IMG/VR virus record: IMGVR_UViG_3300032287_000749
Location: 1-28,810 of that record
Strand: one strand, 5' to 3'
Origin: a virus
DNA length: 28,810 nucleotides
In this document: positions 1-28,810 of the stretch, one piece after another
Numbering within the stretch: position 1 is the stretch's first letter
Layout of the letters: every line of letters starts with the position of its first letter
Position numbers and translations under genes: made by a program
Notes under the pieces: generated by a model
The model's input: only the letters and a program-made list of their open reading frames with translations
Database searches by the model: none
Told to the model about the DNA's origin: nothing

Positions 1-896
1 CTGCTTTATTAGCAGCTAACCCAGAGGCATTCTATTCTCAAGCTTACTTGTCTGAGGATACTGCTGACAACTACCGTTCTTTACCAGGTGTAAAGTACAA
101 AACTAAATTAGCGACTGTTACTTTCGGTAACATCTTGCAACCATCTAGCTGTTCTTTCTCAGCTCCTAATGATGATTTGAACGCTAAAGAAATTGACGTA
201 TGTGCTCTTTCTGCAATGGCTCAAATTTGTCAGTTTGATTTAGAGCAATCTTTCCTTTCTTTGCAAATGACAAAAGGATCTAACGGAGATTTTTCTGTTG
301 CATCTTTCATGTCTTTCTACTGGGGTGAGATGGCTAACAAAATTAACGGAGATATCGAATTAGTAAGATGGCAAGGTGATACACTTTCTGCTAACCCTAC
401 ACTTGCTCTATGTGATGGTTATGAGAAAAAATTGACAGCAGGTTTAACTGACCCAACTGATACGGTAATCAATGGTGGTACAGGTGCTATTGCTAACTTC
501 ACTGCTTTACGTACTAAGTTAGAAGCTGCATTTGCTTTGCTTCCTGCAACTATTGCTACTCGTACAGCTGACCTACGTCTATACATGCCTACTCAATTGG
601 TTAACATCTACCGATTAGGAGTAGCTGCAGGTAACACTCAAGCGTTTATTACTCAAGATTTGAACTTGACTTTCTTAGGTGTTAAAATCGTAGTATGTCC
701 TGGTATGTCTAACAACACTTTCGTGTGGACATTGAAAGATAACCTTATCTACGCATTCGATGCTGAAGGTGATTCATCTGATTTACGTGCAGTTAACTTA
801 GCTGATACTGTAGCTGAGCCTTATATCCGTACACGTGCTAACATGAAAGTTGGTTTCGAATATGTGAATGGTTCTGACATCGTTTTCTATTCTTAA
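1..896 (+). CDS. Major capsid protein, 5'-truncated by window edge
   Basis: This gene probably encodes the major head protein that builds the icosahedral shell. The reading frame is open from base 3, so the gene begins before the window; 297 residues are visible and the stop is TAA at 894-896. Comparison with the second copy at 28436 puts base 3 at codon 14, giving a full length near 310 aa, usual for HK97-fold capsid proteins. The C-terminus (NLADTVAEPYIRTRANMKVG followed by FEYVNGSDIVFYS) has the beta-strand ending usual for these proteins. No catalytic motif is expected. The context supports the call: in the second copy a protease-scaffold gene lies one base upstream, and here a tail-tube-like gene and the portal follow. 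A start at base 48 (TTG) is not credible because the frame and homology continue upstream. The family name rests on context and general resemblance, not on a profile search. Confidence 0.8.
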   Translation, partial: ALLAANPEAFYSQAYLSEDTADNYRSLPGVKYKTKLATVTFGNILQPSSCSFSAPNDDLNAKEIDVCALSAMAQICQFDLEQSFLSLQMTKGSNGDFSVASFMSFYWGEMANKINGDIELVRWQGDTLSANPTLALCDGYEKKLTAGLTDPTDTVINGGTGAIANFTALRTKLEAAFALLPATIATRTADLRLYMPTQLVNIYRLGVAAGNTQAFITQDLNLTFLGVKIVVCPGMSNNTFVWTLKDNLIYAFDAEGDSSDLRAVNLADTVAEPYIRTRANMKVGFEYVNGSDIVFYS

Positions 897-6235: not shown

Positions 6236-6265
6236 TTTGCATATATGAAACTATTTGTATCTTTG
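6236..6265 (+). promoter_or_regulatory. Host-type promoter for early region
   Basis: TTTG (6236-6239), 18 bp, TATCTTTG (6258-6265) fits the Bacteroidota primary-sigma consensus TTTG-N-TAnnTTTG. A 28-base leader follows before ATG 6294. The leader contains ATTAACACTTAAAAA, closely shared with the leader of the promoter at 11020. Confidence 0.75.
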
Positions 6266-7337: not shown

Positions 7338-7528
7338 ATCAGCACAAAATATACAGGGTGCTAAGACTCTTGCAGCTCCTACAGGAAAAACCGAGAACAG
7401 TAATGTCAATATCCAGGTACTTAGGCACCAGTGAGAGAACAGTCTACAGATATTTTAAGCTATTTGAAAAGCTTGAGTACACTGTAAAACGAGATATTTA
7501 TTACAAGTATTATATTGAGAAATTATGA
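7334..7528 (+). CDS. Winged-helix DNA-binding protein (HTH_11-like)
   Basis: A 64-aa protein. YRVLRLLQLLQEKPRTVM (7-24), SISRYLGTSERTVYRYFKLF (25-44) and a short wing (VKRDIYYKYYIEKL) make up an almost minimal HTH_11/DeoR-type domain; TSERTVYRYFKLFEKL is a clear recognition helix. ATG 7334 is preferred over an upstream TTG at 7304 because it forms an ATGA overlap with the previous stop and starts the domain in the usual place. It probably acts as a dimer on operators or near the origin; the target is unknown. Confidence 0.7.
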   Translation: MNQHKIYRVLRLLQLLQEKPRTVMSISRYLGTSERTVYRYFKLFEKLEYTVKRDIYYKYYIEKL

Positions 7529-7977
7529 ATGAGGAACTATTTGAACTGAGCAAAGTGCTTAACCAGGATATCATTGATATCATTAAAACGTACAAACTAG
7601 ATAGCTCCAGTAGAAAGCAGGACCTAGTTAGCAAGAGATACTACCTGTACAGCTACATGAGTAAGCATAGGCACATGACTACGACCATGATAGGAAGGTA
7701 CTTCAATAGAGATCATAGTACTGTGGTCCATGGGATATCTGAACATGAGTACTGGTATAAGAATAAGGATGCTAATTACCTTAAATTTATCCATCCGGTA
7801 CCTGAACTCATCCGAGCTAAGAGGTCAGATATAAATATCTTCGATGTGGATGTTATGCCACTGGATGATGAGGAAGCCAGGATAACTATCACCGGTAACT
7901 TCTCACCTAAGTTATTAAGAAGTTTTCAAGAGCAAATGACCAAAGAGGAATTATGTACTACATTTGAACTATCATAA
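7525..7977 (+). CDS. DnaA domain-IV-like DNA-binding protein
   Basis: A 150-aa protein whose residues about 30-78 resemble the C-terminal DNA-binding domain of the replication initiator DnaA: a basic region with SRKQDLVSKRYYLYSYMSK, then MIGRYFNRDHSTVVHGI containing the R-D-H-S-T signature (R62-T66) that reads the DnaA box. The AAA+ ATPase part of DnaA is absent. The C-terminal 60 residues are unrelated and acidic. It is the last gene before a terminator and an AT-rich gap in front of the primase-helicase, so it may mark the phage origin or compete with host DnaA. Similar stand-alone domains are known in phages; the function here is inferred. Confidence 0.8.
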   Translation: MNEELFELSKVLNQDIIDIIKTYKLDSSSRKQDLVSKRYYLYSYMSKHRHMTTTMIGRYFNRDHSTVVHGISEHEYWYKNKDANYLKFIHPVPELIRAKRSDINIFDVDVMPLDDEEARITITGNFSPKLLRSFQEQMTKEELCTTFELS

Positions 7978-10582: not shown

Positions 10583-11040
10583 TGAAAAAAGAGTATAAGG
10601 CACTGCTTCATGAGCTGAAGCTTCAACGGTATGCCATTACACATCCTAATTTCCCACAAGACTATATACCTAAAACAATGTACAAAGACTCAACAGCAAA
10701 TGGATTGACAAGAGCTATCTGTGATTTCATAAACTATCAAGGATACCAGGCAGAACGCATTAACACAATGGGAACAGCAAGAGAAAAAAAGACAACAGCC
10801 GGTAAGGTAATCGGGGTAACCTGGACAAAGGGCACCTCTACAGCAGGGAGTGCTGATATATCTGCTACCATTAAGGGACGTAGTGTGAAAATAGAGGTCA
10901 AGATAGGTAAGGATAGGCAGTCAGAGGCTCAGAAAAGATATCAAGAGAATATCGAGAGAGCAGGTGGTACCTATTACATAGCCAAAAATTTTGATGATTT
11001 CGTTGAATTTTTCAATGATTTTGTAAATAAGTGCAATTAA
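10582..11040 (+). CDS. VRR-NUC-type nuclease
   Basis: A 152-aa PD-(D/E)XK-fold nuclease. GSADISATIKGRSVKIEVK gives D92, E105 and K107, and Q117 lies in the following helix (SEAQKRYQENIERAG), ending with YYIAKNFDDF; this is the VRR-NUC order. The helix TANGLTRAICDFINYQGYQA (38-57) is the usual N-terminal helix. Such proteins cut branched DNA such as Holliday junctions or flaps, and in phages often serve recombination or resolve DNA before packaging. It is co-transcribed with the primase-helicase. A promoter for the next genes lies in its last 20 bases. Confidence 0.75.
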   Translation: MKKEYKALLHELKLQRYAITHPNFPQDYIPKTMYKDSTANGLTRAICDFINYQGYQAERINTMGTAREKKTTAGKVIGVTWTKGTSTAGSADISATIKGRSVKIEVKIGKDRQSEAQKRYQENIERAGGTYYIAKNFDDFVEFFNDFVNKCN

Positions 11041-11052
11041 TTTGTATATTTG
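11020..11052 (+). promoter_or_regulatory. Host-type promoter for recombination genes
   Basis: TTTG (11020-11023), 21 bp, TATATTTG (11045-11052). The leader ATTAACACCTTAAAATT (11058-11074) leads directly to ATG 11075 and closely matches the leader at 6272. Part of the promoter lies inside the end of the nuclease gene. Confidence 0.75.
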
Positions 11053-11074: not shown

Positions 11075-11608
11075 ATGACAACAAGGAAAACAACTCAAGC
11101 TGAAGAGCCAAAAACAGCAATGAATATTTATCAAAAATTGCACTGTGCTAAGCAGTCAATGGGTAAGGTCATTAAGAATGCCACTAACCCACATTTCAAA
11201 CGCAACTATGCTGATATTAACTCTATCATTGAGACCGTTGAGCCTATCCTAATGGATTGCGGACTAATATTAATGCAGCCGGTTATTGATAATAAGGTAA
11301 TCAGTAGAATAATTGACATTGAAACAGGAGAAAATGTAGAAAGTTCACTTGAATTACCTGCTATTTTAGATCCGCAGAAGCTACTTAGCTGCATTACTTA
11401 CTTCCGTAGAGGTACATTGGTTAGCTTACTATCCCTGCAAGCAGTGGATGATGATGGTGAGACTGCAAGCAAAGCTCCTAAGGCAAAGCCTACATTAGAT
11501 GGGGAGAGATGGGATAAGGCACTGGCAGCAGTTAAGAATGGTAAGTTCACTCCTGAGCAGATTAAAGAGATGTACAACCTAACCAAAGAGCAGGAGGCAC
11601 AGCTATGA
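11075..11608 (+). CDS. ERF-family single-strand annealing protein
   Basis: A 177-aa recombinase that would pair complementary single strands. MNIYQKLHCAKQSMGKVIKN (16-35), NPHFKRNYADINSIIE (37-52) and DPQKLLSCITYFRRGTLVSL with LQAVDDDGE (about 98-128) are the three conserved blocks of the ERF family; the ITYxRR motif is intact. The C-terminal 45 residues (after about 130) are charged and contain a helix starting WDKALAAVKNGKFTPEQIKE that probably binds SSB or another partner. It overlaps the exonuclease gene by four bases; annealing protein plus exonuclease form a Red-like pair. Confidence 0.88.
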   Translation: MTTRKTTQAEEPKTAMNIYQKLHCAKQSMGKVIKNATNPHFKRNYADINSIIETVEPILMDCGLILMQPVIDNKVISRIIDIETGENVESSLELPAILDPQKLLSCITYFRRGTLVSLLSLQAVDDDGETASKAPKAKPTLDGERWDKALAAVKNGKFTPEQIKEMYNLTKEQEAQL

Positions 11609-12818: not shown

Positions 12819-13167
12819 ATTTAAAGGAGAAGTGGTATTCATTACCCCTACAACGTCAGTGAATGACAAATTCAAAAAGAGAGAGATAACTCTAAAGAGC
12901 CAGGATGAATATCCGCAGTACGTTACGTTCCAATTAACCCAGGACAAATGCGATTTAGCTAACAATCTCAAAACAGGTGAGGTAGTAGAGGTGCAGTATA
13001 ACCTACGAGGCCGTAGATGGGAGGCACAAGACGGTACAATCAAGTACTTCAACTCGATTGAAGCATGGACCATGAGCTTGAGCTCAAAGGTAGAGAACAG
13101 TGCTGTTGATAAATTACGCAAAACTTTTGACACTACAGATGAGAGCAGTGACGATCTACCTTTCTGA
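12811..13167 (+). CDS. DUF3127-like single-stranded DNA-binding protein
   Basis: A 118-aa protein with an OB-fold-like pattern of strands (FKGEVVFITPT, REITLKSQD, YVTFQLTQDKCDLANNL, GEVVEVQYNLRGRRWEA, KYFNSIEAWTM) and an acidic tail ending DESSDDLPF. The tail is the SSB-type C-terminal peptide that recruits replication and repair partners. This matches DUF3127, a family of Bacteroidota and their phages. It probably coats single strands made by the helicase and exonuclease. Confidence 0.8.
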   Translation: MSKFKGEVVFITPTTSVNDKFKKREITLKSQDEYPQYVTFQLTQDKCDLANNLKTGEVVEVQYNLRGRRWEAQDGTIKYFNSIEAWTMSLSSKVENSAVDKLRKTFDTTDESSDDLPF

Positions 13168-13375
13168 GGACCAACAACTATCTGAATGGATGCGGAAAGA
13201 GATTAAACTCAAGCTATCCAAGAGATATAAGCTGACCCATCTATCTGAGGACATGGGGGTCAATTATGCTAAGCTATACCGGTTCATGCAGGGCCGTAAT
13301 GTGACCACTGAGATCTATGATAGCTTTTTTAAAGTATATTTGAATCAATGGAACTCTTACTACTCATACCTATAG
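13139..13375 (+). CDS. Small HTH protein
   Basis: A 78-aa basic protein from ATG 13139. Residues about 35-65 (KLTHLSEDMGVNYAKLYRFM then QGRNVTTEIYDSFFKVYL) resemble a small XRE-like helix-turn-helix, with 'LSEDMGVNYAKLYRFMQG' as the two core helices. The N-terminal 30 residues (YLSEDQQLSEWMRKEIKLKL) look like a helical dimer part. It may be a phage regulator. It overlaps the DUF3127 gene by 29 bases; an upstream start at 13100 is possible but would lengthen that overlap. Confidence 0.6.
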   Translation: MRAVTIYLSEDQQLSEWMRKEIKLKLSKRYKLTHLSEDMGVNYAKLYRFMQGRNVTTEIYDSFFKVYLNQWNSYYSYL

Positions 13376-13596: not shown

Positions 13597-13793
13597 AGGT
13601 AATAGATAAGATAGATGCACAGCCTGAAGCAGTGAAGTACTCTAAGCACTCATGCGTTCAGCTGTACAAAATACGGGTCAAGTACGATGGTCCACAGCCT
13701 AGGGAGTGCTTTTGTGCTTCAGTTAGGCGGAAAGTATGGTACAAAGACTTTATGGTATGGTATGAAAAGACTCTTAGACAAGTACATCAATAG
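13575..13793 (+). CDS. Small phage protein, unknown function
   Basis: A 72-aa protein from ATG 13575 (MFEQTDIEVIDKIDAQPE). The core VQLYKIRVKYDGPQPREC then FCASVRRKVWYKDFMVWYEK is basic and aromatic, as in nucleic-acid-binding proteins, but no family is certain. Longer frames from upstream run through the membrane-protein gene and are rejected. It overlaps the sigma-like gene by 32 bases. Confidence 0.55.
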   Translation: MFEQTDIEVIDKIDAQPEAVKYSKHSCVQLYKIRVKYDGPQPRECFCASVRRKVWYKDFMVWYEKTLRQVHQ

Positions 13794-14307
13794 TAATTAC
13801 CATGAGGTAAGAGCTTACACGCTGTACTTTCTCACTAAGATGGGGAGTAAGATAGAGGCAGATACCGTTATAAATAACTCATACCTGCATGTGCTGACCA
13901 TTAATGAGGATGCCAATAGTGAAGACCAGGTAAAAAGTTACTTGCTCAACACAATCAAGTATCAAATCCTATGGAACACGTCACTGAGCCATAGAGATGA
14001 CAGGGTCACATCCATGGAGTATGAGCCCAGTGAGCAGGAGGATGACGAACAGGATCTACAAGCTAAGATACTGGAGGATAAAATATACAGCACTCACAAA
14101 GGGCTGATAGAGATCTATAGAGCAGGGATAAGTGACAATGTGCACAGGATAGTTTTTGAGGCATATATCGATAAAGGTTATACCACAGCTCGAGGGATGG
14201 CTAAGTACTTCGGGATACCGGTTACTTCAGCTCATTACCTTATCACTGAAATTAAACAAAATCTTAGAAAATTACAATATAGGTATGAGACTATCTCAAA
14301 TAATTAG
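13762..14307 (+). CDS. Sigma-factor-like protein (candidate late regulator)
   Basis: A 181-aa protein with the size and layout of a small (ECF-type) sigma factor. Residues 1-75 are helical like region 2 (HEVRAYTLYFLTKMGSKIEA, then SEDQVKSYLLNTIKYQILWN). An acidic linker follows (SEQEDDEQD, 90-98). Residues 140-172 form a helix-turn-helix like region 4 (YTTARGMAKYFGIPVTSAHY then LITEIKQNLRKL). It is the last gene before the packaging block, and a copy of the late element lies in its own 3' end (14255). It may direct host RNA polymerase to the late elements. The similarity is structural; conserved region 2 motifs are weak, so another HTH regulator remains possible. ATG 13762 is preferred over 13687, which runs deep into the previous gene. 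Confidence 0.55.
   Translation: MKRLLDKYINSNYHEVRAYTLYFLTKMGSKIEADTVINNSYLHVLTINEDANSEDQVKSYLLNTIKYQILWNTSLSHRDDRVTSMEYEPSEQEDDEQDLQAKILEDKIYSTHKGLIEIYRAGISDNVHRIVFEAYIDKGYTTARGMAKYFGIPVTSAHYLITEIKQNLRKLQYRYETISNN
14255..14284 (+). promoter_or_regulatory. Late element E (candidate phage promoter)
   Basis: AACAAA (14255-14260), 14 bp, CAATATAG (14275-14282), GT, then ATG 14285. The spacer contains CTTAGAA as in elements B and C. It lies in the coding end of the sigma-like gene and starts the packaging block. Confidence 0.55.
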
Positions 14308-16769: not shown

Positions 16770-16799
16770 AACACATTAACTGCTTAGAATAATATAGGT
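16770..16799 (+). promoter_or_regulatory. Late element B (candidate phage promoter)
   Basis: AACACA (16770-16775), 14 bp, TAATATAG (16790-16797), GT, then ATG 16800. The string CTTAGAATAATATAG is identical to that in element C. It fills the only gap between terminase and tail genes. Confidence 0.6.
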
Positions 16800-18266
16800 A
16801 TGGCAATGACATTAAAGGCTGCACCTCAGCGACTCACTCCGGCATACAACCCAGTCAAGTATATCTATGACTCGACAAACAAAAACTTAGGAGGCTTCAA
16901 GTATATCTTTGAGGTATACGAGTCAGGCACAGCTAATCAGATAGCTGAGTACAGGGTGCTACCTGTTTACTCTACGGGGTACGGTGAGATTGACCTAACT
17001 AAGTTACTCCAGTCTAAGGTAAGCTTTGACCTGGAGCCAACAAATGATACATCCTATGCTGCACCCAACAGCTACTATAATTATGATGTCAAGGTAGGTG
17101 AAGAGTATCTCACTACTACCACATTCACTTCAGCCATGACTCAGTACATCACTGCACCCTATGCCGGTAGAGTTCAGCTGAATGGAGCTAACAGCTTTGT
17201 GGTAGGTGATCAGATAGTATTAACTCAGACAGGACTAGGAGCAGCCAATGCTAACTTTGATGGACTGTACACTGTGCTTGTTGCTACACCTACCTATATT
17301 GTTATTAACTTCCTATGGTCAGGTATCACCAACATTAACAAGGATGTTGACATTACTTATGCAGATGGCAGGAGGACCACTACCTACAATATAATCAATG
17401 ACCTAAATAACTATGTATTCAATGGTGCACTGCCTTGGACTCAATGGCCGTTATGGGATGAGAACCAGTACTATCTACAAACAGCATTTGACAAGTTCTT
17501 AACCTCATGCCCTGCTACCAACTTTTACGCTACCCTATCTCCAGACCTTTGGATGAATGCAGTGTATCAAGCTGCAGGTATAGGTACTCACAAAATTATA
17601 TTCAAGAATGATGCAGCTGAGATATTTGAAAAGACTTTGCTAGTCAATGACTATATCACAGGAAATGCAGTAGGTCCTAACAACCTTGGAACACTGACAC
17701 CAATCATAGGCTCACTTCCATTGATTAAGCCTACCACTGAGTATTACGATTATTACTATGAGTTCAATGGTAACCAGGTTACTCAACCCTACCGAGTGAA
17801 CATAGATCGTAGAACACAAAGCCAAGAGTACAGCATTATATTCCTAGACCGTCTTGGCTCATGGGGTAGCTTTGCATTCACAGGTAGAGCATACGAGACA
17901 GGAAGCGTACAGCGTGAGCAGTACAACCAAGATGTGCAAGGTAAGATAGCAAGCAGTGAATGGACCTATGACCTAACTGAAAGAGGATATACCAACAGCT
18001 ATGTAACGGTAGAGAATACCATTGACCTCAATACTAACTGGATGACTGAGGACATGGCTACCTATTTCACTGAGCTCATCAGTTCACCTTACACTTACTT
18101 CAAGGTAAGCAACTACGATGAGAACTGTGATATACCTGCAAGCACTGAGTACATCAGCTGTAATGTAATGACCTCCAACTACGAGTACTATAAGCAACGG
18201 AACAAAAATCTAATCAAGCAAAGCATTACTATTAAGCTTGCTAATAACGACATGGTCAATGGTTAG
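16800..18266 (+). CDS. Tail structural protein, Bacteroidota phage type
   Basis: A 488-aa, mainly beta-strand protein rich in Tyr, Asn and Thr, without membrane segments. It begins with PQRLTPAYNPVKYIYDSTNK and a segment with FEVYESGTANQIAEYRVLP, followed by repeats of beta hairpins. The C-terminal half has YRVNIDRRTQSQEYSIIFLD, where a strand with 'LDRLGSWGSFAFTGR' recalls receptor- or baseplate-associated proteins. Proteins of this type precede the large tail protein and tape measure in related phages, so a distal-tail or tail-tip role is likely. The exact function is unknown. Confidence 0.6.
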   Translation: MAMTLKAAPQRLTPAYNPVKYIYDSTNKNLGGFKYIFEVYESGTANQIAEYRVLPVYSTGYGEIDLTKLLQSKVSFDLEPTNDTSYAAPNSYYNYDVKVGEEYLTTTTFTSAMTQYITAPYAGRVQLNGANSFVVGDQIVLTQTGLGAANANFDGLYTVLVATPTYIVINFLWSGITNINKDVDITYADGRRTTTYNIINDLNNYVFNGALPWTQWPLWDENQYYLQTAFDKFLTSCPATNFYATLSPDLWMNAVYQAAGIGTHKIIFKNDAAEIFEKTLLVNDYITGNAVGPNNLGTLTPIIGSLPLIKPTTEYYDYYYEFNGNQVTQPYRVNIDRRTQSQEYSIIFLDRLGSWGSFAFTGRAYETGSVQREQYNQDVQGKIASSEWTYDLTERGYTNSYVTVENTIDLNTNWMTEDMATYFTELISSPYTYFKVSNYDENCDIPASTEYISCNVMTSNYEYYKQRNKNLIKQSITIKLANNDMVNG

Positions 18267-21087
18267 GATACAACTAGCAACAGGCTACCTAGATGTTAAG
18301 GAAGGTACAGCATTCCCTCTGACATTTCAGGTAGGAGATATCAGAGATATAAGTCAAAGGAAAGGTAACTTTTCTAAGACCATTGTATTGGTAGGCAGTA
18401 AGAATAACAATGACCTACTGAACCACTACTACGATGTGAACATTGTAGCCGGTACCTTTGACATCAACGCAGTGACTACCTGCTCAGTTATCCAGGATGG
18501 GATACCAGTCATGGAGGATGCAAGCATGCAACTCATGGCCATCAAGAAGGTACAGCTCACTGAACAGTATGAGGAGCATGTGGAGTATGAGGTACTCATC
18601 AAGGAAAGCAAAGCGGATTTCTTTACAGCCATCAATAACCTTGAGCTAACTGATATAGACTTCAGTGACCTCAACCACACATACGATGCATTCAATGTGG
18701 TGAACAGATTTAACAACTCGGTAGCTGATGGCTTCAAGTACTTCCTACCTGGAAGCGGTGACGCGTTCTACAGCACTCAAGAGTTTAAGCCTGCCATCTT
18801 TGCCAAGACTTACTTCGATAGGATATTTGCTGATGCAGGATTTACATATAGTTGGCCCGACCTGTATGATGATAAGTTTGACAGGTTAATCATTCCATAC
18901 AATGGAGATACGGATAACTTCGACTATGCTGACTATAGAGTCAAAGCAAACGCAGGACCTACTACTTATACAGGTACGTTCTTTGCAGGGGTAGCTGAAT
19001 TTCAGAACCTTCAAACCATAGCAGGATGGACTGAGACCGAGGACCCTCAAAACATATTTAACCCTGTCACTGGAGTATATAGTACTCCATTCAACATCAG
19101 CTCAAACAACGCACAGCAGTATGACTACAATGTGCAGATACAATACGAGATAAGACTAGTCAACTCTTCAGGTGTTACATTGTACTCGGGTCAAGCCGGT
19201 ACAGCTGCACCTGTTTTCTTTCAGCCTCAGTTAGCACTTACTCGAAATGGTGTAGTGTCATTCACTACTAATCTATACACTAACCCTGCACCACTTAACA
19301 ACAGTGCAACGGTTACCTATGGAGTTCAAAGTCCTAACTCAATACCTAACGGAACCACAACTATATTGAGTCAGACAGCTATCTGTACCATGGCCTTGAC
19401 TTCTCAGAACTTACCACAGCTATCTCAAGGCAGGTTAGCTGTTAAGGTTCCAAGGATAGCAACCCCAGTGACTGGAGCTAACTCACCAATTTGGAGGACA
19501 GGTTCTGCATCCGGTCCTGCATGTGCATCGGGTCAGATTAAAGTACAGGCAGTAATCACTAGCATAGATGTTACTATCACACCTAGCAATAACATTGTAG
19601 CTATCGGTGGCACTATTGATGTCAATGACTACGTGCCTCAAAAGATAAAGCAAAATGATTTCGTCAAGGCTATCTTCAACATGTACAATCTGTACGCTGA
19701 TATAGATAAGACCCAACCTAATCAGCTTAATCTAATCCATAGGGATGCATACTACGATGCAGGTAAAGAGGTAGACTGGACTTACAAGCTATCCAAAGAC
19801 CAGGAGCAGTCACTGTCATTCTTACCGGAACTGACTAGTAAGAAAGTAATACTAACCTATTCACCTGATACGGATAGCCCTAATGCTACGTACACCACAG
19901 CGACTAATCAAATCTACGGACAAGTAGAGGTAGTCTTTGACAATGAGTATGTCAAGGATGTGGATACTAAGCCTATCTTGTTTGGACCTACGCCAATTAT
20001 TAAAACTCCATTTGGTGCATACGTGCCAATGATAGCAGGACAAGCTCCTAAGACTAATCTGCGTATCCTGTACGATGGCACAACTAGATCATGTAGTCCG
20101 TATCATATCTATGACTACGGTACTACCGGTATGACAGGCGTAACAAGTTACCCATACGTTGGTCACTTTGATGACCCACTTAACCCTACATGGGACCTTA
20201 ACTATTCGGTATGTTCATTCTATTACTACGAACCATTAAGCCTAACAGATAACAATCTATACAATAGATACTGGAGGCGAACCCTAGGGCAGATTAACAA
20301 CGGTAAGATGTTGACTGCTATGTTCAATCTTAAGGATAGTGACATCCAGGCTATGGAGCTCAATGATAAGATACGCATTGACAACTCATGGTGGAACATT
20401 AACCGAGTGATTGACTACGATGCCAATGCTAACAAGCTCACACAGGTAGAGCTTATCTCAGTTGATAGTGAGGTAAACTTCATGCCATTCGTTAACCCGT
20501 TCGGTACTCCAGGTGTAGGCCTTCCAAATATATCAGCTATTCAGCAGGTAGCTAACAGCACTGTGGTCAAGACTAAGAGCATGAATAGCAACGTGCTTAC
20601 CGGTGGCGGCATGATAGGTGACGTAGTGAACCGAGGTAACATTGTACCTGGAGGACTCAGAGTAATGGTAGCCACTGAAGGGTACTCAGTTGAGAATGAT
20701 GGTATAGTCACTGACAACTTAGTGGTAAGAGGTAGCATGAATGGTATCCCTGTTGATGCACCATACTACAAGTACACAGCATTGCTCACACAATCAGGAA
20801 CAGCTGACCCTGTTGCCGATGTGAAAGAAGGTAGCTTTGGAGAGATACTATGGGTACGAAATAACCAGGGAGAATACGAAGGGTTTATTCAAAACTGGGA
20901 GATAGGAACCATCCTAGCAAGTGAGATGACAGTCATGGTGAACAACGTGATGTATGACGGGGTGATCAGTGCTCAGTACATCCCATCAAACAACAGCATT
21001 TATATATTAACAACTCAGATAGGTGTAGGGTATGTAGACAACTACCTTAACTACACCACAATTGAAATCAGATATTACAAGCCATAA
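18259..21087 (+). CDS. Large tail protein (tail tip/baseplate-like)
   Basis: A 942-aa protein. The N-terminal 120 residues (MVRIQLATGYLDVKEGTAFP, then GDIRDISQRKGNFSKTIVL and YEVLIKESKADFFTAINNLE) resemble the start of large tail proteins of Bacteroidota phages. The middle (about 200-460) is Thr/Ser/Asn-rich and beta-strand-rich, and the part around 720-850 holds Gly/Pro-rich turns such as FVNPFGTPGVGLPN. The C-terminal 100 residues (about 845-942) look like a carbohydrate-binding or fibre-head domain. A role in the tail tip or host contact is likely. ATG 18259 gives an 8-base overlap with the previous gene; TTG 18238 is less likely. Confidence 0.6.
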   Translation: MVRIQLATGYLDVKEGTAFPLTFQVGDIRDISQRKGNFSKTIVLVGSKNNNDLLNHYYDVNIVAGTFDINAVTTCSVIQDGIPVMEDASMQLMAIKKVQLTEQYEEHVEYEVLIKESKADFFTAINNLELTDIDFSDLNHTYDAFNVVNRFNNSVADGFKYFLPGSGDAFYSTQEFKPAIFAKTYFDRIFADAGFTYSWPDLYDDKFDRLIIPYNGDTDNFDYADYRVKANAGPTTYTGTFFAGVAEFQNLQTIAGWTETEDPQNIFNPVTGVYSTPFNISSNNAQQYDYNVQIQYEIRLVNSSGVTLYSGQAGTAAPVFFQPQLALTRNGVVSFTTNLYTNPAPLNNSATVTYGVQSPNSIPNGTTTILSQTAICTMALTSQNLPQLSQGRLAVKVPRIATPVTGANSPIWRTGSASGPACASGQIKVQAVITSIDVTITPSNNIVAIGGTIDVNDYVPQKIKQNDFVKAIFNMYNLYADIDKTQPNQLNLIHRDAYYDAGKEVDWTYKLSKDQEQSLSFLPELTSKKVILTYSPDTDSPNATYTTATNQIYGQVEVVFDNEYVKDVDTKPILFGPTPIIKTPFGAYVPMIAGQAPKTNLRILYDGTTRSCSPYHIYDYGTTGMTGVTSYPYVGHFDDPLNPTWDLNYSVCSFYYYEPLSLTDNNLYNRYWRRTLGQINNGKMLTAMFNLKDSDIQAMELNDKIRIDNSWWNINRVIDYDANANKLTQVELISVDSEVNFMPFVNPFGTPGVGLPNISAIQQVANSTVVKTKSMNSNVLTGGGMIGDVVNRGNIVPGGLRVMVATEGYSVENDGIVTDNLVVRGSMNGIPVDAPYYKYTALLTQSGTADPVADVKEGSFGEILWVRNNQGEYEGFIQNWEIGTILASEMTVMVNNVMYDGVISAQYIPSNNSIYILTTQIGVGYVDNYLNYTTIEIRYYKP

Positions 21088-21088
21088 C

Positions 21089-23368
21089 ATGAATGAAGTA
21101 GAAATTCCTTTAAAGCTCGGGGGCATTGCCGAAATAAAAGCAGAACTTAGAGACCTCAAAGGTCAGATAGCTAATGCTGCGGATGCTGATACAATGACTG
21201 AATTAGCTCAAAGAGCAGGACAGTTAAAAGACCAATTAAAGGATGCCAATGAGCAGGTAGCTATCTTTACCACAGGGTCAAAGTTTGAGGCTGTATCTAA
21301 CAGCTTCGGTGCAATCAAAGGGGACTTAATGAGTCTTGACTTTGAAGGTGCATCTGAGAAGGCTCAAGTATTTGCTAAGAACATGGCAAGCATTAAGCCG
21401 GATGACATCAGTAAGGCGTTCAAAGGATTGACAAGTACTATCGGTTCTATCGGTAAGGCATTCATGTCATTAGGTCAAACCCTACTAGCTAACCCTATCT
21501 ATTTAATTGCTGCGGTGATAGCTGGAGTTATTGCTGCTACGATATATCTAGCTGATAAGTTAGGCTACCTTGACCAGGTAACTGAGGCAGCAGGTATGGT
21601 GTTTGATGCCTTAATTGAAACACTCAAGGAACTTGGTGAAAGTATGGGCATAGCTGCTGCTCAAAGTGAGGAGTACATAGCTATGCAGGAGGCTAACACT
21701 AAAGCTAATGAAGAGGCAGAGAAAAGTACAGCAGGTGTTATTGAAGTAACCAATGAAGTAGGCACTGCATTCGAGTTAGCTAAGGAAGGGGTGATATCTA
21801 AAGAGGAAGCACTCGCTACCTACAACTCAAAGCTAGGTGATACATTTGGTGCAGCTACTACATTGGCTGAAGCGGAAAGATTATATGTAGCTAAAACAGA
21901 TGCATACATTGCCGCTACCATGGCTAGAGCTCGAGCTGAAGTCTTTGCTAAGAAAGCAGCGGAAGCAGATGCCAAGGCTATCATGGCTAAGAGCAAAGAC
22001 CAAACAACAGCATTAGATAAGGTTACTACCTGGATAGATAAGAATAAGACTCTAGCGTATGTTGCAGGTGTTGCTACCATGGGTACAGGTCTAGCAGTAG
22101 TAGGTACTCTTGATGCCATGGATAAATCAGGTAAGAGTCTAGCTGATAAGCAAAAGATGAGAGTTGGAGAGGAGCAGAAAAGGCAAGGTAAGATATCTAA
22201 TATGTATCAAGAGGAGGCAAAGAAAGCACTCAAAACTGCACTTGAATTAGAGAAATCTAATGACATAAATATCAAAGGTAATAAGGCAAAGACTGCAATC
22301 CATAAAAAACAAAGCGACCAACGTATTAAGGATGCTGAGAAAGAGGCAGAAAAGCTACGTCAAATTGCTATCAAGGAAAATGAGGAAAGGATTAAAAGAG
22401 AAGATGATCAGTTTGAACTACTTAACAAGCTGACCCTTACACAACGTGAGCAGGATATCCTAGCATTGACTCAAGACTATGATAAAAAGTATGAGCTTGC
22501 AAATGGCAATGCTGAACTTGAGAAGCTACTAGCAGAACAGCAGAAAAAAGATATCGCAGAAATCAATAAGAAATATGCTGATGAGGCAGAAAAGAAAGCA
22601 AAAGAGGAAGCAGATAAATTGCTTGCAGCTAAGAAAGCAGCAGACGATCTAATATTTGAATTGAATGCTACCCAACAAGAGAAAGATATACGAGCACTGG
22701 AGGAACAACTTGAAGCAGATAGAAAAGTCCTAGGTGATAACGCAGCTGCACAGCTCCAGCTTACAGCTAAGTTTGAAGAGGATAAGAAAGCCATCGAGAA
22801 TAAGTATGCACTTGAAAGGATAGAGAATGCTAAGAAAGAAAGGGATGCTAAGATAGCTTTAGCTGAAGAGATATTTAATGGAGTATCTGAGGTAGGTACT
22901 GCATTGATCAAGGACCAAAAGAAACTAGAGAAATTCAATAAGGCAAACGCATTGATTCAAATTGGTATTGATACAGCCAAGGCAATCTCTTCATTAGTTG
23001 CTGCAGCACAGTCTAATCCATTCAATGGAATAACAGCAGGAGCTGCAGGTATTGCTCAGTTTGCATCGGGTATCGTTCAGATAGTTACTAACATAGCCAA
23101 GGCTAAGCAGATATTAACATCAGGCGGTACACCATCAGCAGGCGGTGGAGGAGGTACAGCTGAAGCAACAGGTGCAAGCAATACTAATGTAGCACAGCAG
23201 GTACCGGCATCAGCTCAATTATTTGGTGCAGCTAATAGTGGTAACGTAGTGAGTGCAGGAGGCGGTACAACTAACAGCTCCATGACTGTCACAGCTGTAG
23301 TATCTGAGACACAAATAACCAACGTACAAAACAAGATAACTAAGATTAACAAAAACGCTGAATTATAA
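21089..23368 (+). CDS. Tail tape measure protein
   Basis: A 759-aa protein that sets tail length and is injected with DNA. Residues 1-120 are helical (LKLGGIAEIKAELRDLKGQI). A hydrophobic segment at about 135-155 (NPIYLIAAVIAGVIAATIYL) can cross the membrane. About 360-600 is highly charged coiled coil, full of Lys/Glu/Ala. The C-terminal 180 residues hold a second hydrophobic part (GITAGAAGIAQFASGIVQIV) and a Gly/Ala-rich, low-complexity tail (SAGGGGGTAEATG). By the usual 0.15 nm per residue, the tail would be near 110 nm, a rough estimate. No tail sheath gene is seen, in line with a siphovirus. ATG 21089 is chosen over an upstream TTG at 21062, which overlaps the previous gene. Confidence 0.85.
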   Translation: MNEVEIPLKLGGIAEIKAELRDLKGQIANAADADTMTELAQRAGQLKDQLKDANEQVAIFTTGSKFEAVSNSFGAIKGDLMSLDFEGASEKAQVFAKNMASIKPDDISKAFKGLTSTIGSIGKAFMSLGQTLLANPIYLIAAVIAGVIAATIYLADKLGYLDQVTEAAGMVFDALIETLKELGESMGIAAAQSEEYIAMQEANTKANEEAEKSTAGVIEVTNEVGTAFELAKEGVISKEEALATYNSKLGDTFGAATTLAEAERLYVAKTDAYIAATMARARAEVFAKKAAEADAKAIMAKSKDQTTALDKVTTWIDKNKTLAYVAGVATMGTGLAVVGTLDAMDKSGKSLADKQKMRVGEEQKRQGKISNMYQEEAKKALKTALELEKSNDINIKGNKAKTAIHKKQSDQRIKDAEKEAEKLRQIAIKENEERIKREDDQFELLNKLTLTQREQDILALTQDYDKKYELANGNAELEKLLAEQQKKDIAEINKKYADEAEKKAKEEADKLLAAKKAADDLIFELNATQQEKDIRALEEQLEADRKVLGDNAAAQLQLTAKFEEDKKAIENKYALERIENAKKERDAKIALAEEIFNGVSEVGTALIKDQKKLEKFNKANALIQIGIDTAKAISSLVAAAQSNPFNGITAGAAGIAQFASGIVQIVTNIAKAKQILTSGGTPSAGGGGGTAEATGASNTNVAQQVPASAQLFGAANSGNVVSAGGGTTNSSMTVTAVVSETQITNVQNKITKINKNAEL

Positions 23369-24141
23369 TGAACTCACTACAAGCAATCACCAACCACATT
23401 GAGCAGTTCTACAACAATCACCTGCAGGTAAAGAAAGTAGGTAGTGACTTCAAGGAACAGCTGTACAACTTCGCTACCCAGGATGAGAAATACCCTATAA
23501 TTTTCATTGTACCGGTAAGCGTTAACCCTACCGAGAACACCTCAGAGTTTAACTTTGACATCTATTGCTTTGATATTATTCAAAAGGATAGAGCTAATAT
23601 CATTACAATCCTAAGCGATACACAGCAAATACTTAATGACTTGTATGTATACTTTACTTACAGCAATGACTACAGCTTTGATGTGATAGGACTGCCTAGC
23701 TTCCAAGCAATAAACAATGATCTACTTGACTACGCTGCAGGGTATGTTATGAACATCACTCTTACTGTCAATGACTGGACTGACTGTGCTGTACCATTGA
23801 ATACCAATGAGCCTACTATATCAGTGTATAGTCAAGTTATTGATTTCATGGCTCATCCTGTTTACAATTCAATTCAATATATGTGTGATGGTGTAATGGT
23901 TGAGGCTTGCTATGATACAGGTGGCTTTGATAACATACCTGCATTGGTTAACTTATTCAACACACCTGCTCCATCACCTTTACCTGTGTATTGTAATGAC
24001 CCTAGTTTTTGTTTATGTTGGTCAACCTATGGTACTTACTATGACAATGGGGATGGGACCATTAGATTAGAAATGCCTGTATCAATTTACAACAGCTTGT
24101 GCCCAGGTGGTACATTGACTTTGAATGTTATTCAAGATTAA
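23368..24141 (+). CDS. Tail-associated protein, unknown function
   Basis: A 257-aa protein. The N-terminal 130 residues (NSLQAITNHIEQFYNNHLQV, then EQLYNFATQDEKYPIIFIVP) have the helix-strand order of tail terminator-like proteins, with ENTSEFNFDIYCFDIIQKDR in the centre. The C-terminal half is different: Cys- and Pro-rich (PVYCNDPSFCLCWSTYGTYY, CPGGTLTLNV), possibly a small beta domain with disulfides. The combination may be a fusion of tail-completion and exposed virion parts. TAATG overlap with the tape measure gene. Confidence 0.5.
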   Translation: MNSLQAITNHIEQFYNNHLQVKKVGSDFKEQLYNFATQDEKYPIIFIVPVSVNPTENTSEFNFDIYCFDIIQKDRANIITILSDTQQILNDLYVYFTYSNDYSFDVIGLPSFQAINNDLLDYAAGYVMNITLTVNDWTDCAVPLNTNEPTISVYSQVIDFMAHPVYNSIQYMCDGVMVEACYDTGGFDNIPALVNLFNTPAPSPLPVYCNDPSFCLCWSTYGTYYDNGDGTIRLEMPVSIYNSLCPGGTLTLNVIQD

Positions 24142-24170
24142 ACATTTCGGAGGCTTAGAATAATATAGAT
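24141..24170 (+). promoter_or_regulatory. Late element C (candidate phage promoter)
   Basis: AACATT (24141-24146), 14 bp, TAATATAG (24161-24168), AT, then ATG 24171. Only the 29 bases between two genes are available, and the element fills them. Confidence 0.6.
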
Positions 24171-25580
24171 ATGAGTGCACCAAATTGGTGGGGAGACTGG
24201 AGACCTATCCTCACACCTCACACCGGAAACCTTCAACCTACTGACTTGCTAGAATGTACAATGATAGTAGGAGGTTTGCCTGTCAACACAGCTATCACCG
24301 GTCAACAAATCATTGATGGTGCAGGTGGTGGTGGTGCAGTAGGTTACTATGCTCAATACCAGGATGACATTAGTCAACCATTAGGTGCTGTGAATGTAGG
24401 TCAACCTGTTAAGTTCAGGACCATGGATTTCAGCAATGGTGTAACGGTTAACAGTGATACTGAGATTACCATAGCTAATACAGGGATATATAACCTGCAG
24501 TTCTCTTTTCAATATCAGAACACAGACACTCAAGAGCATGATGTAACTGTATGGCTTAGAAAAAATGGTTCGGATGTAGCAGGTAGTGCAGGCTTTGTAG
24601 CTGTTGTAGCTAAGCATGGTGGAGTACCTGGACACTGCATACCATCATGGAACTATTTACTTGATGCAGTAGGTGGAGATTATTACGAGCTGTATTGGAG
24701 TGCTACAAGTACACAGGTTACTCTTGAGTTTTATCCTGCAGGTAGTCCTCCTCCATCTGCAGCATCAGCTATATTCACCGTAACACAACAGGCAGGTATC
24801 ATAGCCGGTACAGGTATGACTGCATTGAATGGCTTGAGTGCAGATGTTCAGACAATAAGCACAGGAACTATAGGCACTGACTTCAACGTGGTATCAAGTG
24901 GTAGTAATCATGAGTTTAATATACCCACAGCATCCGCAACTAACCGAGGTGCATTGAGTACTACGGACTGGAGTGCCTTCAATGGTAAGCAAGCAGCGTT
25001 GGTATCCGGTACCAATATCAAGACAATAGCTAGTAACTCATTAGTAGGTAGTGGAGATGTACCATTGAAAACTATTAACGGTATTGGATTAGTTGGAAGT
25101 AGCAATATAGTCATAGCCTCTAGCCCTTACACATTAATAGGTAACCAATCAGGTGCATATGTCACAGGCACTATTGCCAATACTGCAAGCACTAGTCAAC
25201 GTATATTTCCAAATACAGTAAGCAATACTAACATTATTCAGGTCAGAACCAAGGTACATAAAATAAATAGTACTACATCTAGTACTATCAGAATGTACAT
25301 TAATACTAGCAACAGCTTAACAGGTGCAACATTAATAGCTACTGCAGCAGCAATGGGTACTCTTGGGATACAATCTTTTTGGAGAGACTTTCTTTTGGTA
25401 GGTAATCAATTATATTGCTATAATCCCAATACAGCTATCTCATCTGATATCACATTTAGTACCGTAACTTTAGTATCATTCAATCCTGCGGTAGATAACT
25501 ACATAATTTTTGCAGTACAAAACAGTGCTACCGCTGACTCGGTTAGCTTTTTAAGAACAAATGTAATGGTATATGCATAA
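24171..25580 (+). CDS. Tail fibre/receptor-binding-like protein with C1q/TNF-like domain
   Basis: A 469-aa virion protein. Residues about 60-205 have the strand order of a C1q/TNF-like jelly roll (VKFRTMDFSNGVTVNSDTEI, GIYNLQFSFQYQNTDT, VTVWLRKNGSDV, YELYWSATSTQVTLEFYPAG), a trimer-forming, sugar- or protein-binding fold. The centre (about 235-310) is fibre-like, with ATNRGALSTTDWSAFNGKQA and two similar units SNSLVGSGDVPL and GIGLVGSSNIVI, common in phage fibres. The C-terminal 150 residues form another beta domain (NTSNSLTGATLIATAAAMGT). This is the best candidate for host recognition in the window. Confidence 0.7.
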   Translation: MSAPNWWGDWRPILTPHTGNLQPTDLLECTMIVGGLPVNTAITGQQIIDGAGGGGAVGYYAQYQDDISQPLGAVNVGQPVKFRTMDFSNGVTVNSDTEITIANTGIYNLQFSFQYQNTDTQEHDVTVWLRKNGSDVAGSAGFVAVVAKHGGVPGHCIPSWNYLLDAVGGDYYELYWSATSTQVTLEFYPAGSPPPSAASAIFTVTQQAGIIAGTGMTALNGLSADVQTISTGTIGTDFNVVSSGSNHEFNIPTASATNRGALSTTDWSAFNGKQAALVSGTNIKTIASNSLVGSGDVPLKTINGIGLVGSSNIVIASSPYTLIGNQSGAYVTGTIANTASTSQRIFPNTVSNTNIIQVRTKVHKINSTTSSTIRMYINTSNSLTGATLIATAAAMGTLGIQSFWRDFLLVGNQLYCYNPNTAISSDITFSTVTLVSFNPAVDNYIIFAVQNSATADSVSFLRTNVMVYA

Positions 25581-25725: not shown

Positions 25726-26170
25726 ATACGCAAACACAGGGGAGTTCAATGTCCTATATCCTACCCGTAGGAAAATGGCTAACATATTAAAAAGGATTAT
25801 TCGTAATGACGTTGTGGATGGCGAAGGTACACTTGTAGAAAGTATCCGTATCAATGCCAAGGTAACAGGCTTTCAAAAACTGGAAATCCAAATCGTAGCC
25901 ATGTACTACTTTATCTTTCTAAACAATGGAGCATTTTTATGGAACGGTGGGGTAATTACTCCGAGAGATTTCGTTGCACAATTTACGGATGAGTTAAACG
26001 CTGCAGGTATCACTGCAGAAATATACAGCCAGTACACTGAATGGTTAACTAAAAAGTATCCATTGGTGCAAGCTGTTGAGGTCCTTGAAAATCAGCAAAA
26101 AATTGTGTACACATTTGAAGCAGTTGACCCTCCTGCAGGATTTACTCCAGGCTTTCCATTAGATGTCTAA
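25718..26170 (+). CDS. Tail/virion accessory protein, unknown function
   Basis: A 150-aa basic protein. RYANTGEFNVLYPTRRKMAN then ILKRIIRNDVVDGEGTLVES (24-43) and INAKVTGFQKLEIQIVAMYY (45-64) resemble HK97 gp10-like tail-completion proteins in layout, but the match is weak. The second half (FTDELNAAGITAEIYSQYTE) is helical. It ends 12 bases into the converging minus-strand gene, so transcription from both sides meets here. Confidence 0.45.
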   Translation: MARYANTGEFNVLYPTRRKMANILKRIIRNDVVDGEGTLVESIRINAKVTGFQKLEIQIVAMYYFIFLNNGAFLWNGGVITPRDFVAQFTDELNAAGITAEIYSQYTEWLTKKYPLVQAVEVLENQQKIVYTFEAVDPPAGFTPGFPLDV

Positions 26171-26899
26171 CTCTTTTTTCATACCCAAAACATTAAACAC
26201 ATAAACGAGTGGTAGGGCACCTATTTTATCACTCTTAGTTATGTCACCTTTTGATAGACTATAGATCATTAGCTCCCAAGACCACTTGGCACTTTGCTGT
26301 TCTTTCTCTATTTCTTTGATTTCTTCAGGGTCAAGTTCTGCCTTTTCTTCATTGGTCAATGGCTCATCTGCTTCACCCATAAATAAGTTCTCATACTTTT
26401 TAAGAAAGTCATCTCTAAACTTTAAGAACTCATGTATCAATCCATACACATCAGTGATGGGTAGGTCAAGGAACTTATCAGCTCTAATGGTGCAGTCAAA
26501 GTCATAGGGCTCCATGACCTCATCCCCCCATTCATTCAGCTTAGTGTTCCGGTATAAGATAGCACATACATTAGCTAGGTTCTCTATATAGTTCTGACCA
26601 AAATAATAGTCCAGGTCAATGTACTCATATAGGCATAGCTTGTTGAATGGCTTGAGCTTCAACCCAAGTAGCTCATGTTTATATCTTTTGGATGGTTCAG
26701 ATTTACACCACTTATTGTCTTTGATTAACTGACGCATCTCATCAACATCGAGCTCTTCAATATCCTCAATGGGTAAGTCTGACAAGATAGAAAGTGCCTC
26801 ACTATTGTAGTGATACGAACCCTGTGAGGCATCTATCTTATTAAACTCAATGAACTGTTCAACAGTTACATCACTCCACTGCTTCGGTAGGTGTATCAT
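26159..26899 (-). CDS. Minus-strand protein 2, tail-chaperone-like, unknown
   Basis: A 246-aa acidic, helical protein on the reverse strand. It starts MIHLPKQWSDVTVEQFIEFN, similar to the N-terminal segment of its upstream neighbour (LTIEQFETI), so the two may be distant relatives. The middle LLGLKLKPFNKLCLYEYIDL (about 74-93) and an acidic segment TNEEKAELDPEEIKEIEKEQ (about 180-199) are visible; no catalytic motif. Two neighbouring proteins of this kind, overlapping by 29 bases in different frames, recall tail assembly chaperones (G/GT), but those normally lie before the tape measure on the same strand. The function is therefore open. Confidence 0.5.
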   Translation of the reverse strand: MIHLPKQWSDVTVEQFIEFNKIDASQGSYHYNSEALSILSDLPIEDIEELDVDEMRQLIKDNKWCKSEPSKRYKHELLGLKLKPFNKLCLYEYIDLDYYFGQNYIENLANVCAILYRNTKLNEWGDEVMEPYDFDCTIRADKFLDLPITDVYGLIHEFLKFRDDFLKKYENLFMGEADEPLTNEEKAELDPEEIKEIEKEQQSAKWSWELMIYSLSKGDITKSDKIGALPLVYVFNVLGMKKELDI

Positions 26900-27410
26900 T
26901 TCGTAATTGTTGGCCTATCTTTTGAGCTATGAACATGATATAAGGGATGGCAATGTTAGCATCTAGCTTGCGTAACAGCTTAGCTTTTTGTTTGATGTGA
27001 GCATCGGCATAGTGTTCGGTAGGTGTAAGGTCCTCACGTTTGAACATGACAGCTAACATCTCAGATATGTATCCTTTGTTCTTATGCAGTGCTACCTTCT
27101 CAATGATCTTAGTATCACGTACAGTTAACTTCATTTGAGCTCGGTAGATATAACCTTCAAGCTCAAGCTCCTCCACTACAGGAAAATCTTTTTGTTCCAT
27201 GGTATTGAAGTTCTTAACAATCTCTACAAAGTCAGCTACATCCGTATCCCAAAACTCATTCTCAGGTATCCCCAGGTAAGCGAATACTTTAAGGTGTTTG
27301 TCAATGGGGTCAAGGCTAGTATCATTGTTGATATCAGTGATAGTCTCGAACTGCTCAATGGTCAGCTCATCGATTTGGTTAGGGATTTCTCTGTCTAAGA
27401 TTTTTATCAT
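26871..27410 (-). CDS. Minus-strand protein 1, tail-chaperone-like, unknown
   Basis: A 179-aa protein on the reverse strand, helical, starting MIKILDREIPNQIDELTIEQ. Residues about 16-45 (LTIEQFETITDINND) match in style the start of the next gene. It contains LKVFAYLGIPENEFWDTDVA (about 44-63) and a C-terminal helical part (IKQKAKLLRKLDANIAIPYI). It is the first gene of the only minus-strand unit and is preceded by a host-type promoter (27426-27461). Stop and next start overlap by 29 bases, with the second gene in the +1 frame relative to the first, so a frameshifted fusion product cannot be excluded. Confidence 0.55.
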   Translation of the reverse strand: MIKILDREIPNQIDELTIEQFETITDINNDTSLDPIDKHLKVFAYLGIPENEFWDTDVADFVEIVKNFNTMEQKDFPVVEELELEGYIYRAQMKLTVRDTKIIEKVALHKNKGYISEMLAVMFKREDLTPTEHYADAHIKQKAKLLRKLDANIAIPYIMFIAQKIGQQLRNDTPTEAVE

Positions 27411-27423
27411 GTTTTAAAATTTG

Positions 27424-27453
27424 AACAAATATAGGAAATTTATAATATAGGTA
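27424..27453 (+). promoter_or_regulatory. Late element D (candidate phage promoter)
   Basis: AACAAA (27424-27429), 13 bp, TAATATAG (27443-27450), GTA, then ATG 27454. It is the weakest match in spacing (13 and 3 instead of 14 and 2). It overlaps the minus-strand promoter (27426-27461), and starts the protease/capsid block. Confidence 0.5.
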
Positions 27454-27461
27454 ATGGCAAA
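27426..27461 (-). promoter_or_regulatory. Host-type promoter, minus strand
   Basis: On the minus strand: TTTG (27461-27458), 24 bp, TATATTTG (27433-27426), then a 15-base AT-rich leader to ATG 27410. The -7 box matches the consensus perfectly; the spacer is one to five bases longer than the other promoters here, so the -33 assignment is less sure. Confidence 0.5.
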
Positions 27462-28435: not shown

Positions 28436-28810
28436 ATGCGTAAATTAAAATTCGACTTACAAGTTGACCCAACTGCTTTATTAGCAGCTAACCCTGAGGC
28501 ATTTTATTCTCAAGCTTACTTATCTGAGGATACTGCTGACAACTACCGTTCTTTGCCAGGAGTAAAGTACAAAACTAAATTAGCGACTGTTACTTTTGGT
28601 AACATCTTACAACCATCTACTTGTAGCTTCACTGCTCCTAATGATGATTTGAACGCTAAAGAAATTGATGTATGTGCTCTTTCTGCAATGGCTCAAATTT
28701 GTCAGTTTGACCTTGAGCAATCTTTCTTATCTCTTCAAATGTCAAAAGGATCTAACGGAGATTTCTCTGTTGCATCTTTCATGTCTTTCTACTGGGGTGA
28801 GATGGCTAAC
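28436..28810 (+). CDS. Major capsid protein, second copy, 3'-truncated by window edge
   Basis: The first 125 codons of a major capsid gene, starting MRKLKFDLQVDPTALLAANP. From 28473 it aligns without gaps to bases 1-338, with 24 substitutions (about 93% identity). Three residues differ, all Ser/Thr exchanges (residues 62, 66 and 103 by this numbering); 14 further codons differ silently. The silent excess shows both copies evolved as working genes, so this is not sequencing error. It shows the true start of the capsid gene missing at the left edge. Confidence 0.85.
   Translation, partial: MRKLKFDLQVDPTALLAANPEAFYSQAYLSEDTADNYRSLPGVKYKTKLATVTFGNILQPSTCSFTAPNDDLNAKEIDVCALSAMAQICQFDLEQSFLSLQMSKGSNGDFSVASFMSFYWGEMAN

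Follow-up and report, generated by a model that had tools for sequence, protein, structure and literature searches.

The gene for a predicted sigma-factor-like protein of 181 aa occupies an open frame at positions 13762 to 14307 (+ strand) of the window, by which we mean the whole stretch analyzed, positions 1 to 28,810 of the IMG/VR record IMGVR_UViG_3300032287_000749. Residues 1 to 74 are sigma2-like, and a linker at about 77 to 93 leads to a sigma4-like helix-turn-helix (HTH) part at about 95 to 180. A longer alternative frame begins at 13687. Because relatives with differing upstream sequence share the same start Met (MKxxLDxYI), 13762 is the likely start. The gene is conserved across hundreds of IMG/VR phages. 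No prophage or cellular copy was found, since both a BLAST search of INPHARED with the 181-aa protein and a scan of 85,000 bacterial genomes for its relatives came back empty. A small ORF just upstream (13100 to 13375) has weak Cro/C1-type HTH matches, and its product is a possible early regulator.

The initial annotation had placed the sigma-like gene at the end of the early/middle region, and the gene order bears this out. Upstream lie early or replicative genes for a DnaA-C-like HTH protein, a primase, and an SSB-like DUF3127 protein. Downstream lie TerS (GP3_package) and TerL, followed by tail, head, portal, and lysis genes. The early region includes, at 7525 to 7977, a gene for a protein with a DnaA C-terminal DNA-binding domain (Bac_DnaA_C, E 9e-9). 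None of the scanned window ORFs, including those of 804, 768, 488, and 442 aa, matched an RNA polymerase family, in agreement with the earlier remark that no phage RNA polymerase is seen. The largest late ORF (949 aa) had no match of any kind.

A 300-nt direct repeat with 92% identity stands at the two ends of the window (1 to 300 and 28473 to 28772). The record is classed as linear, but the repeat has the look of terminal redundancy in a genome that is circular or permuted and was assembled from two variants. Most relatives are terminally redundant too, at about 28 to 30 kb. They form a family of freshwater phages whose hosts are probably Bacteroidota.

Predicted fold of the 181-aa protein

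By sequence, the similarity to sigma factors is marginal. Direct searches of Pfam and PHROGs with the window protein gave no sigma match, the protein did not reach the Pfam Sigma70_r2/r4 gathering cut-offs, and Pfam PF04542 had no match in the window genome at E<=10. Several NCBIfam sigma models matched the protein family at E values of about 1e-3, all below their cut-offs, with a best E of 3.3e-4 across family members. The models matched were mostly sigma factors, among them PRK12520, Sig70_bacteroi1, sigma70-ECF, Sig70_famx1, and Sig-70_gvs1, and the TIGR02937 alignment covered residues 5 to 169. A profile-profile comparison (hhalign) with 12 collected sigma factors aligned region 4 only and was not significant (P 0.046), and a sequence profile run against the PDB found only a weak TetR HTH and a hydrogenase match. 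The RinA model TIGR01636 matched 1 of 18 family members (E 0.0085); the window protein itself matched none of the RinA/ArpU models.

We then turn to structure. Two AF2 models, built from alignments of 17 to 18 relatives, had mean pLDDT values of 73 and 79. They place N-terminal helices at residues 2 to 27, 33 to 46, 54 to 73, and 75 to 85, a disordered linker at about 77 to 93, and a C-terminal HTH part with helices at 95 to 122, 126 to 136, 143 to 150, and 154 to 180. In these models, the helix order is that of an ECF sigma factor, with sigma2, linker, and sigma4. When the models were compared with the PDB by Foldseek, the first 35 or so ranks in both runs were all sigma factors or sigma-like domains, including SigL, SigH, SigE, AlgU, SigW, SigK, and FliA, and the best match had an E of 2.8e-3 and a probability of 1.00. 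Structures holding sigma4 only (3hug, an isolated sigma4 domain) matched at TMt 0.56 to 0.64. The E values are modest and the full-length TM-scores low, about 0.25 to 0.37, probably since the models do not fix how the two domains sit relative to each other. Thus AF2 and Foldseek give a sigma2-then-sigma4 fold in which the mutual placement of the domains is left loose. In BFVD, the first match was an uncharacterized phage protein (45% identical), followed by an "RNA polymerase sigma-70 region 2" protein (E 1.8e-4) and many phage sigma factors.

The initial annotation had proposed a region 2-like helical part and a region 4-like HTH. The conserved gene and the sigma2/sigma4 similarity of the predicted fold, seen in both the PDB and BFVD, support this proposal. 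The profile search against sigma families gave NCBIfam sigma models at about 1e-3, below cut-offs, and no Pfam sigma match. The protein is therefore sigma-like by its predicted fold, and it is not filed as a sigma-70 member by sequence cut-off.

Late elements and their coupling to the gene

We scanned the window for a bipartite pattern, AACA-N15-17-YAATATAG(G/A)T, whose consensus spacer is N16. Five full-form late elements were found, all on the + strand and none on the - strand. By comparison, 500 dinucleotide shuffles of the window held a mean of 0.024 sites and never more than 1, so the five elements claimed earlier are real. Sigma-70-type TTGACA/TATAAT sites were no more frequent than in shuffles.

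Each element heads a late block. Element E (AACAAAATCTTAGAAAATTACAATATAGGT, 14255 to 14284, + strand) falls within the 3'-terminal part of the sigma-like gene, where the initial annotation had put it, and abuts the ATG at 14285 of the small-protein/TerS/TerL block. Element C (AACACATTAACTGCTTAGAATAATATAGGT, 16770 to 16799, +) abuts the ATG at 16800 of the block encoding the 488-aa protein, the 949-aa protein, and the tape measure. Element D (AACATTTCGGAGGCTTAGAATAATATAGAT, 24141 to 24170, +) abuts the ATG at 24171 of the WWGDWR protein block. Element B (AACAAATATAGGAAATTTATAATATAGGT, 27424 to 27452, +) ends 1 nt before the ATG at 27454 of an S78-type head protease gene, which is followed by the coat protein gene. 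Element A (AACATTTGTAAAGTCTAATTTAATATAGGT, 1546 to 1575, +) abuts a GTG at 1576 and heads the block for a 116-aa protein, portal, holin, and amidase. In the window and its relatives, most copies read TAATATAGGT and then ATG at once.

Two observations concern the surroundings of these elements. Ahead of element A, a G+C-rich stretch runs into a series of T (GGTGGGCCTTTTTT, 1520 to 1550). This arrangement is kept in relatives and may be a terminator insulating the portal/lysis block. Between elements D and B of the late region, two genes (26159 to 27410) are on the - strand, opposite to all others, and neither has a late element ahead of it.

The elements head the same five genes in the window and 25 relatives. 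Of the 98 sites aligned, 94 have AACA or TACA at a distance of exactly 22 nt ahead of ATATAG(G). Genome-wide, AACA accompanies ATATAGG at that offset in 94/157 cases on the strand of the sigma-like gene and in 0/74 on the other. ATATAGG alone is barely enriched (157 sites versus 129 expected from first-order composition on the sigma strand), and only its pairing with AACA is enriched. Complete genomes carry five late elements each, at fixed places downstream of the sigma-like gene.

Gene and elements occur together. Both are present in 25/25 near relatives and in 20/20 genomes of divergent clades, whose proteins are about 49 to 57% identical to that of the window; no relative in either set keeps the gene and lacks the elements. 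The 20 divergent genomes hold 83 sites on the sigma strand and 4 on the other, against 20 over both strands for a reversed-pattern control. In a scan for the elements only, with contigs chosen regardless of the gene, we tested eight contigs of about 23 kb or more. Five carried the whole gene, two carried a gene cut by the contig end, and one ended earlier; all that span the locus carry the gene. The one apparent case of elements without the gene, G027, is explained by a contig that stops short of the place where the gene would be expected.

The 3' end of the element also varies with the sigma clade. It is GGT in clade 1, a mixture of GGT, GTT, and GTC in clade 2, GTT in clade 3, and TAT in clade 4. 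Copy E is missing from the sigma 3' end in the divergent clade 2, where the copies at other late blocks remain, and in clade 4 it comes shortly after the gene. Therefore, the placement of E inside the gene is a common but not obligatory arrangement. Where E does overlap the gene, the codons over its boxes (KQ; QYRY) are invariant or nearly so and the spacer codons vary, with 21 to 29% of codons invariant gene-wide. Judged from these alignments, such constraint with a free spacer is the signature expected of a bipartite DNA site. Given the invariant box codons and variable spacer codons, we rejected the idea that E is a chance product of coding sequence.

Primary-sigma promoters of the Bacteroidota read TTTG ... 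TAnnTTTG (PMC7366714). Promoter-like sites of this host type lie on the + strand at 6236 to 6265 (TTTG-N-TATCTTTG), at the head of the early region, and at 11020 to 11052 (TTTG-N-TATATTTG), before the gene at 11075 in the early/middle region. Across relatives, there are 53 such sites in 285 kb of early + strand, 36 in 585 kb of late + strand, and 28 in 870 kb of minus strand, a density three to six times higher in the early region than elsewhere, although not exclusive to it. This distribution fits host-driven early and phage-driven late transcription, as far as sequence can suggest. A host-type site also lies 263 nt before the start of the sigma-like gene in eight relatives (G007, G010, G011, G012, G014, G023, G026, and G028), and the window has none there.

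A cultured parallel exists in Nonlabens phage P12024S (JQ823122.1). Like the window, P12024S and P12024L (Inhavirus) have the order DUF3127, primase, VRR-NUC, sigma-like gene, and terminase, with AACA-N16-(-10) elements against late start codons and one just after the sigma gene. The gene P12024S_33 (20595 to 21071, before the terminase) is annotated as Sigma-70 region 2 and, unlike the window protein, exceeds the Pfam PF04542 (Sigma70_r2) cut-off, at 25.2 bits, with relatives reaching 34.9. Its elements have the form AACA-N16-CGTTAATA. The pair AACA ... CGTTA stands next to the ATG of the late genes at 179, 3031, 5412, 23961, 25201, and 26802 and also of the gene at 21280, with an AACA-to-CGTTA offset of 20 (19 at one site). 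Both elements and gene are kept in the relatives L500 to L506. The two sigma proteins have no detectable pairwise similarity, and a profile-profile comparison of the window family with P12024S_33 was not significant. Shallow alignments possibly account for this null result and for that with the 12 collected sigma factors. The -35 box is common to both systems, whereas the -10 box is CGTTAATA in P12024S and TAATATAGG in the window family. A common -35 box with different -10 boxes is the pattern that recognition by two diverged sigma factors would predict.

A candidate switch for late transcription

We propose that a phage-encoded ECF-like sigma factor drives leaderless or near-leaderless late transcription by host RNA polymerase, in the manner of phage 7-11, and we put the probability of this reading at about 0.77. 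The gene and its predicted fold, the elements, their conservation, their co-occurrence with the gene, and their clade-wise covariation are established here. In the proposed scheme, early genes would use the host's own TTTG/TAnnTTTG promoters, and the 181-aa protein would be made in the early/middle phase as a small sigma factor of sigma2 plus sigma4. It would bind the host core RNA polymerase and direct it to five promoters of the form AACA (-35-like)-N16-YAATATAGGT (-10-like), one heading each late block. The first of these, E, within the 3' end of the sigma gene, would start the packaging block. That a phage sigma factor reads the late elements, as the initial annotation suggested, is thus supported by comparative evidence, namely fold, co-occurrence, and covariation. 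From the sequences we infer RNA polymerase binding, element recognition, timing, and transcript 5' ends.

The late promoters would usually touch the start codon, and because the element touches the ATG, late mRNAs are predicted to have little or no leader. In other phage sigma promoters, 6 to 9 nt separate the -10 box from the start (PMC8948821), and in Flavobacterium, 4 to 5 nt separate the -7 box from the start (PMC6847099). With either spacing, transcription would begin with the A of the ATG or slightly later, inside the ATG or after it. If YAATATA is the -10 box, then either the start site is unusually close or the -10 core is to be read about 2 nt further upstream. This start-site geometry is the least secure step of the late-promoter reading.

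Because the conserved block abuts the start codon at most sites, it might be taken for a translation-initiation signal instead of a promoter. We consider this very improbable. The element marks just five genes, each the first of its block, and its distant AACA box keeps a fixed spacing even inside a coding region. Moreover, the distance between element and ATG differs at several orthologous sites, and the box spacing stays unchanged. The start codon is shifted by +1 at B in G000, G001, and G020 and at C in G003, by +2 at D in G010 and G013, and by about +12 at C in G008, G010 to G013, G022, and G023. On this ground, we rejected the element as a ribosome-binding signal. Flavobacterium favors A at -3 and -6 and makes no use of a Shine-Dalgarno sequence (PMC6847099); the late element has G, not A, at -3, and so it is without the A that favors initiation there.

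Other explanations keep the elements as promoter-like sites and assign the protein a different role. A late-gene activator with a sigma-like HTH, acting in the manner of ArpU/RinA, could bind the AACA box or its surroundings and recruit the host holoenzyme. In favor of this, the protein resembles sigma region 2 weakly by sequence, the RinA model matches one family member, and the sigma-like gene sits just ahead of the terminase block, a usual spot for ArpU/RinA-type regulators. However, the N-terminal half is predicted to fold like sigma2, and the best structural matches are whole sigma factors. The element is also bipartite and -35/-10-like, with its boxes at a constant distance of 16 nt. Its -10 box does not resemble the host TAnnTTTG, which would leave a host holoenzyme without a -7 box to recognize. 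An activator is therefore unlikely in our judgment. We give still less credit to a host alternative (ECF) sigma factor as the reader of the elements, with the phage gene doing something else, such as binding a host sigma factor or core. Bacteroidota carry many ECF sigma factors, and the CGT box of some flavobacterial ECF-type promoters (PMC9723704) resembles the CGTTA of the P12024S elements. Against this, the last bases of the element change in step with the phage sigma clade, and every contig that was chosen by the elements and spans the locus has the gene.

A wider conclusion has, in our estimate, an even chance of being correct: that a widespread lineage of Bacteroidota phages has its own sigma factor and leaderless late promoters, in which the AACA (-35) box stayed constant and the -10 box diverged alongside the sigma factor. 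The -10 boxes form the series TAATATAGG, TAATATAGTT, and TAATATATAT, with CGTTAATA in the Nonlabens phages. Such co-divergence, if true, would be a natural series of matched sigma-promoter pairs, which could reveal how sigma region 2 reads unusual -10 boxes. Our results supply a candidate factor and exact target sites, and P12024S is a cultured laboratory system for testing both. The promoters are a possible source of Bacteroidota promoters silent without the phage sigma factor, and the two-box pattern offers a practical handle for annotating many uncultured phages, in which it marks start codons and late blocks.

Comparison with known systems

Our literature search turned up no account of a switch for late transcription in small Bacteroidota phages. 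RinA/ArpU regulators, from phages of Gram-positive hosts, are small HTH proteins encoded near the terminase that turn on late genes. To our knowledge, they have no sigma2-like half, and one weak profile match is all that links them to the window family. The sigma factors of crAss-like phages ("sigma-W", cr1_1, and cr50_1) are ECF-type, as is predicted for the window protein, and come from phages whose hosts are thought to be Bacteroidota. Unlike the window protein, they have clear RpoE similarity by BLAST, and they belong to genomes of about 100 kb. ECF (group 4) sigma factors, such as Escherichia coli RpoE and Mycobacterium tuberculosis SigL and SigH, share with the window protein the arrangement of sigma2, linker, and sigma4 and are its top Foldseek matches. 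Their -35 box has an AAC core, as does the late element. The window protein differs in that no anti-sigma factor was recognized alongside it and its sequence falls below all curated cut-offs.

The sigma factor SaPh711_gp47 of phage 7-11, one of the phiEco32-like phages, reads late promoters of the form GTAAtg-(16)-aCTA (PMC8948821). The window likewise has bipartite promoter-like sites with a fixed 16-nt spacer (AACA-N16-YAATATA) ahead of its late blocks, and it encodes a small sigma-like protein predicted to work with the host core RNA polymerase. Early genes of phage 7-11 are transcribed from host primary sigma promoters, and the window may resemble it in this, given that host-type sites are enriched in, although not exclusive to, the early region. 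In addition, the sigma factor of GAP52, a relative of phage 7-11 (K4F9S8), is among the structural matches to the window protein. The two systems differ in host phylum, promoter sequence, and genome. In the window, unlike in phage 7-11, the elements touch start codons and one lies inside the sigma-like gene. What is new here is the phylum, the promoter specificity, the layout abutting the start codon, and the clade-wise divergence of the -10 box. Among systems with a proven mechanism, the phage 7-11 sigma factor with its late promoters is the one that works most similarly.
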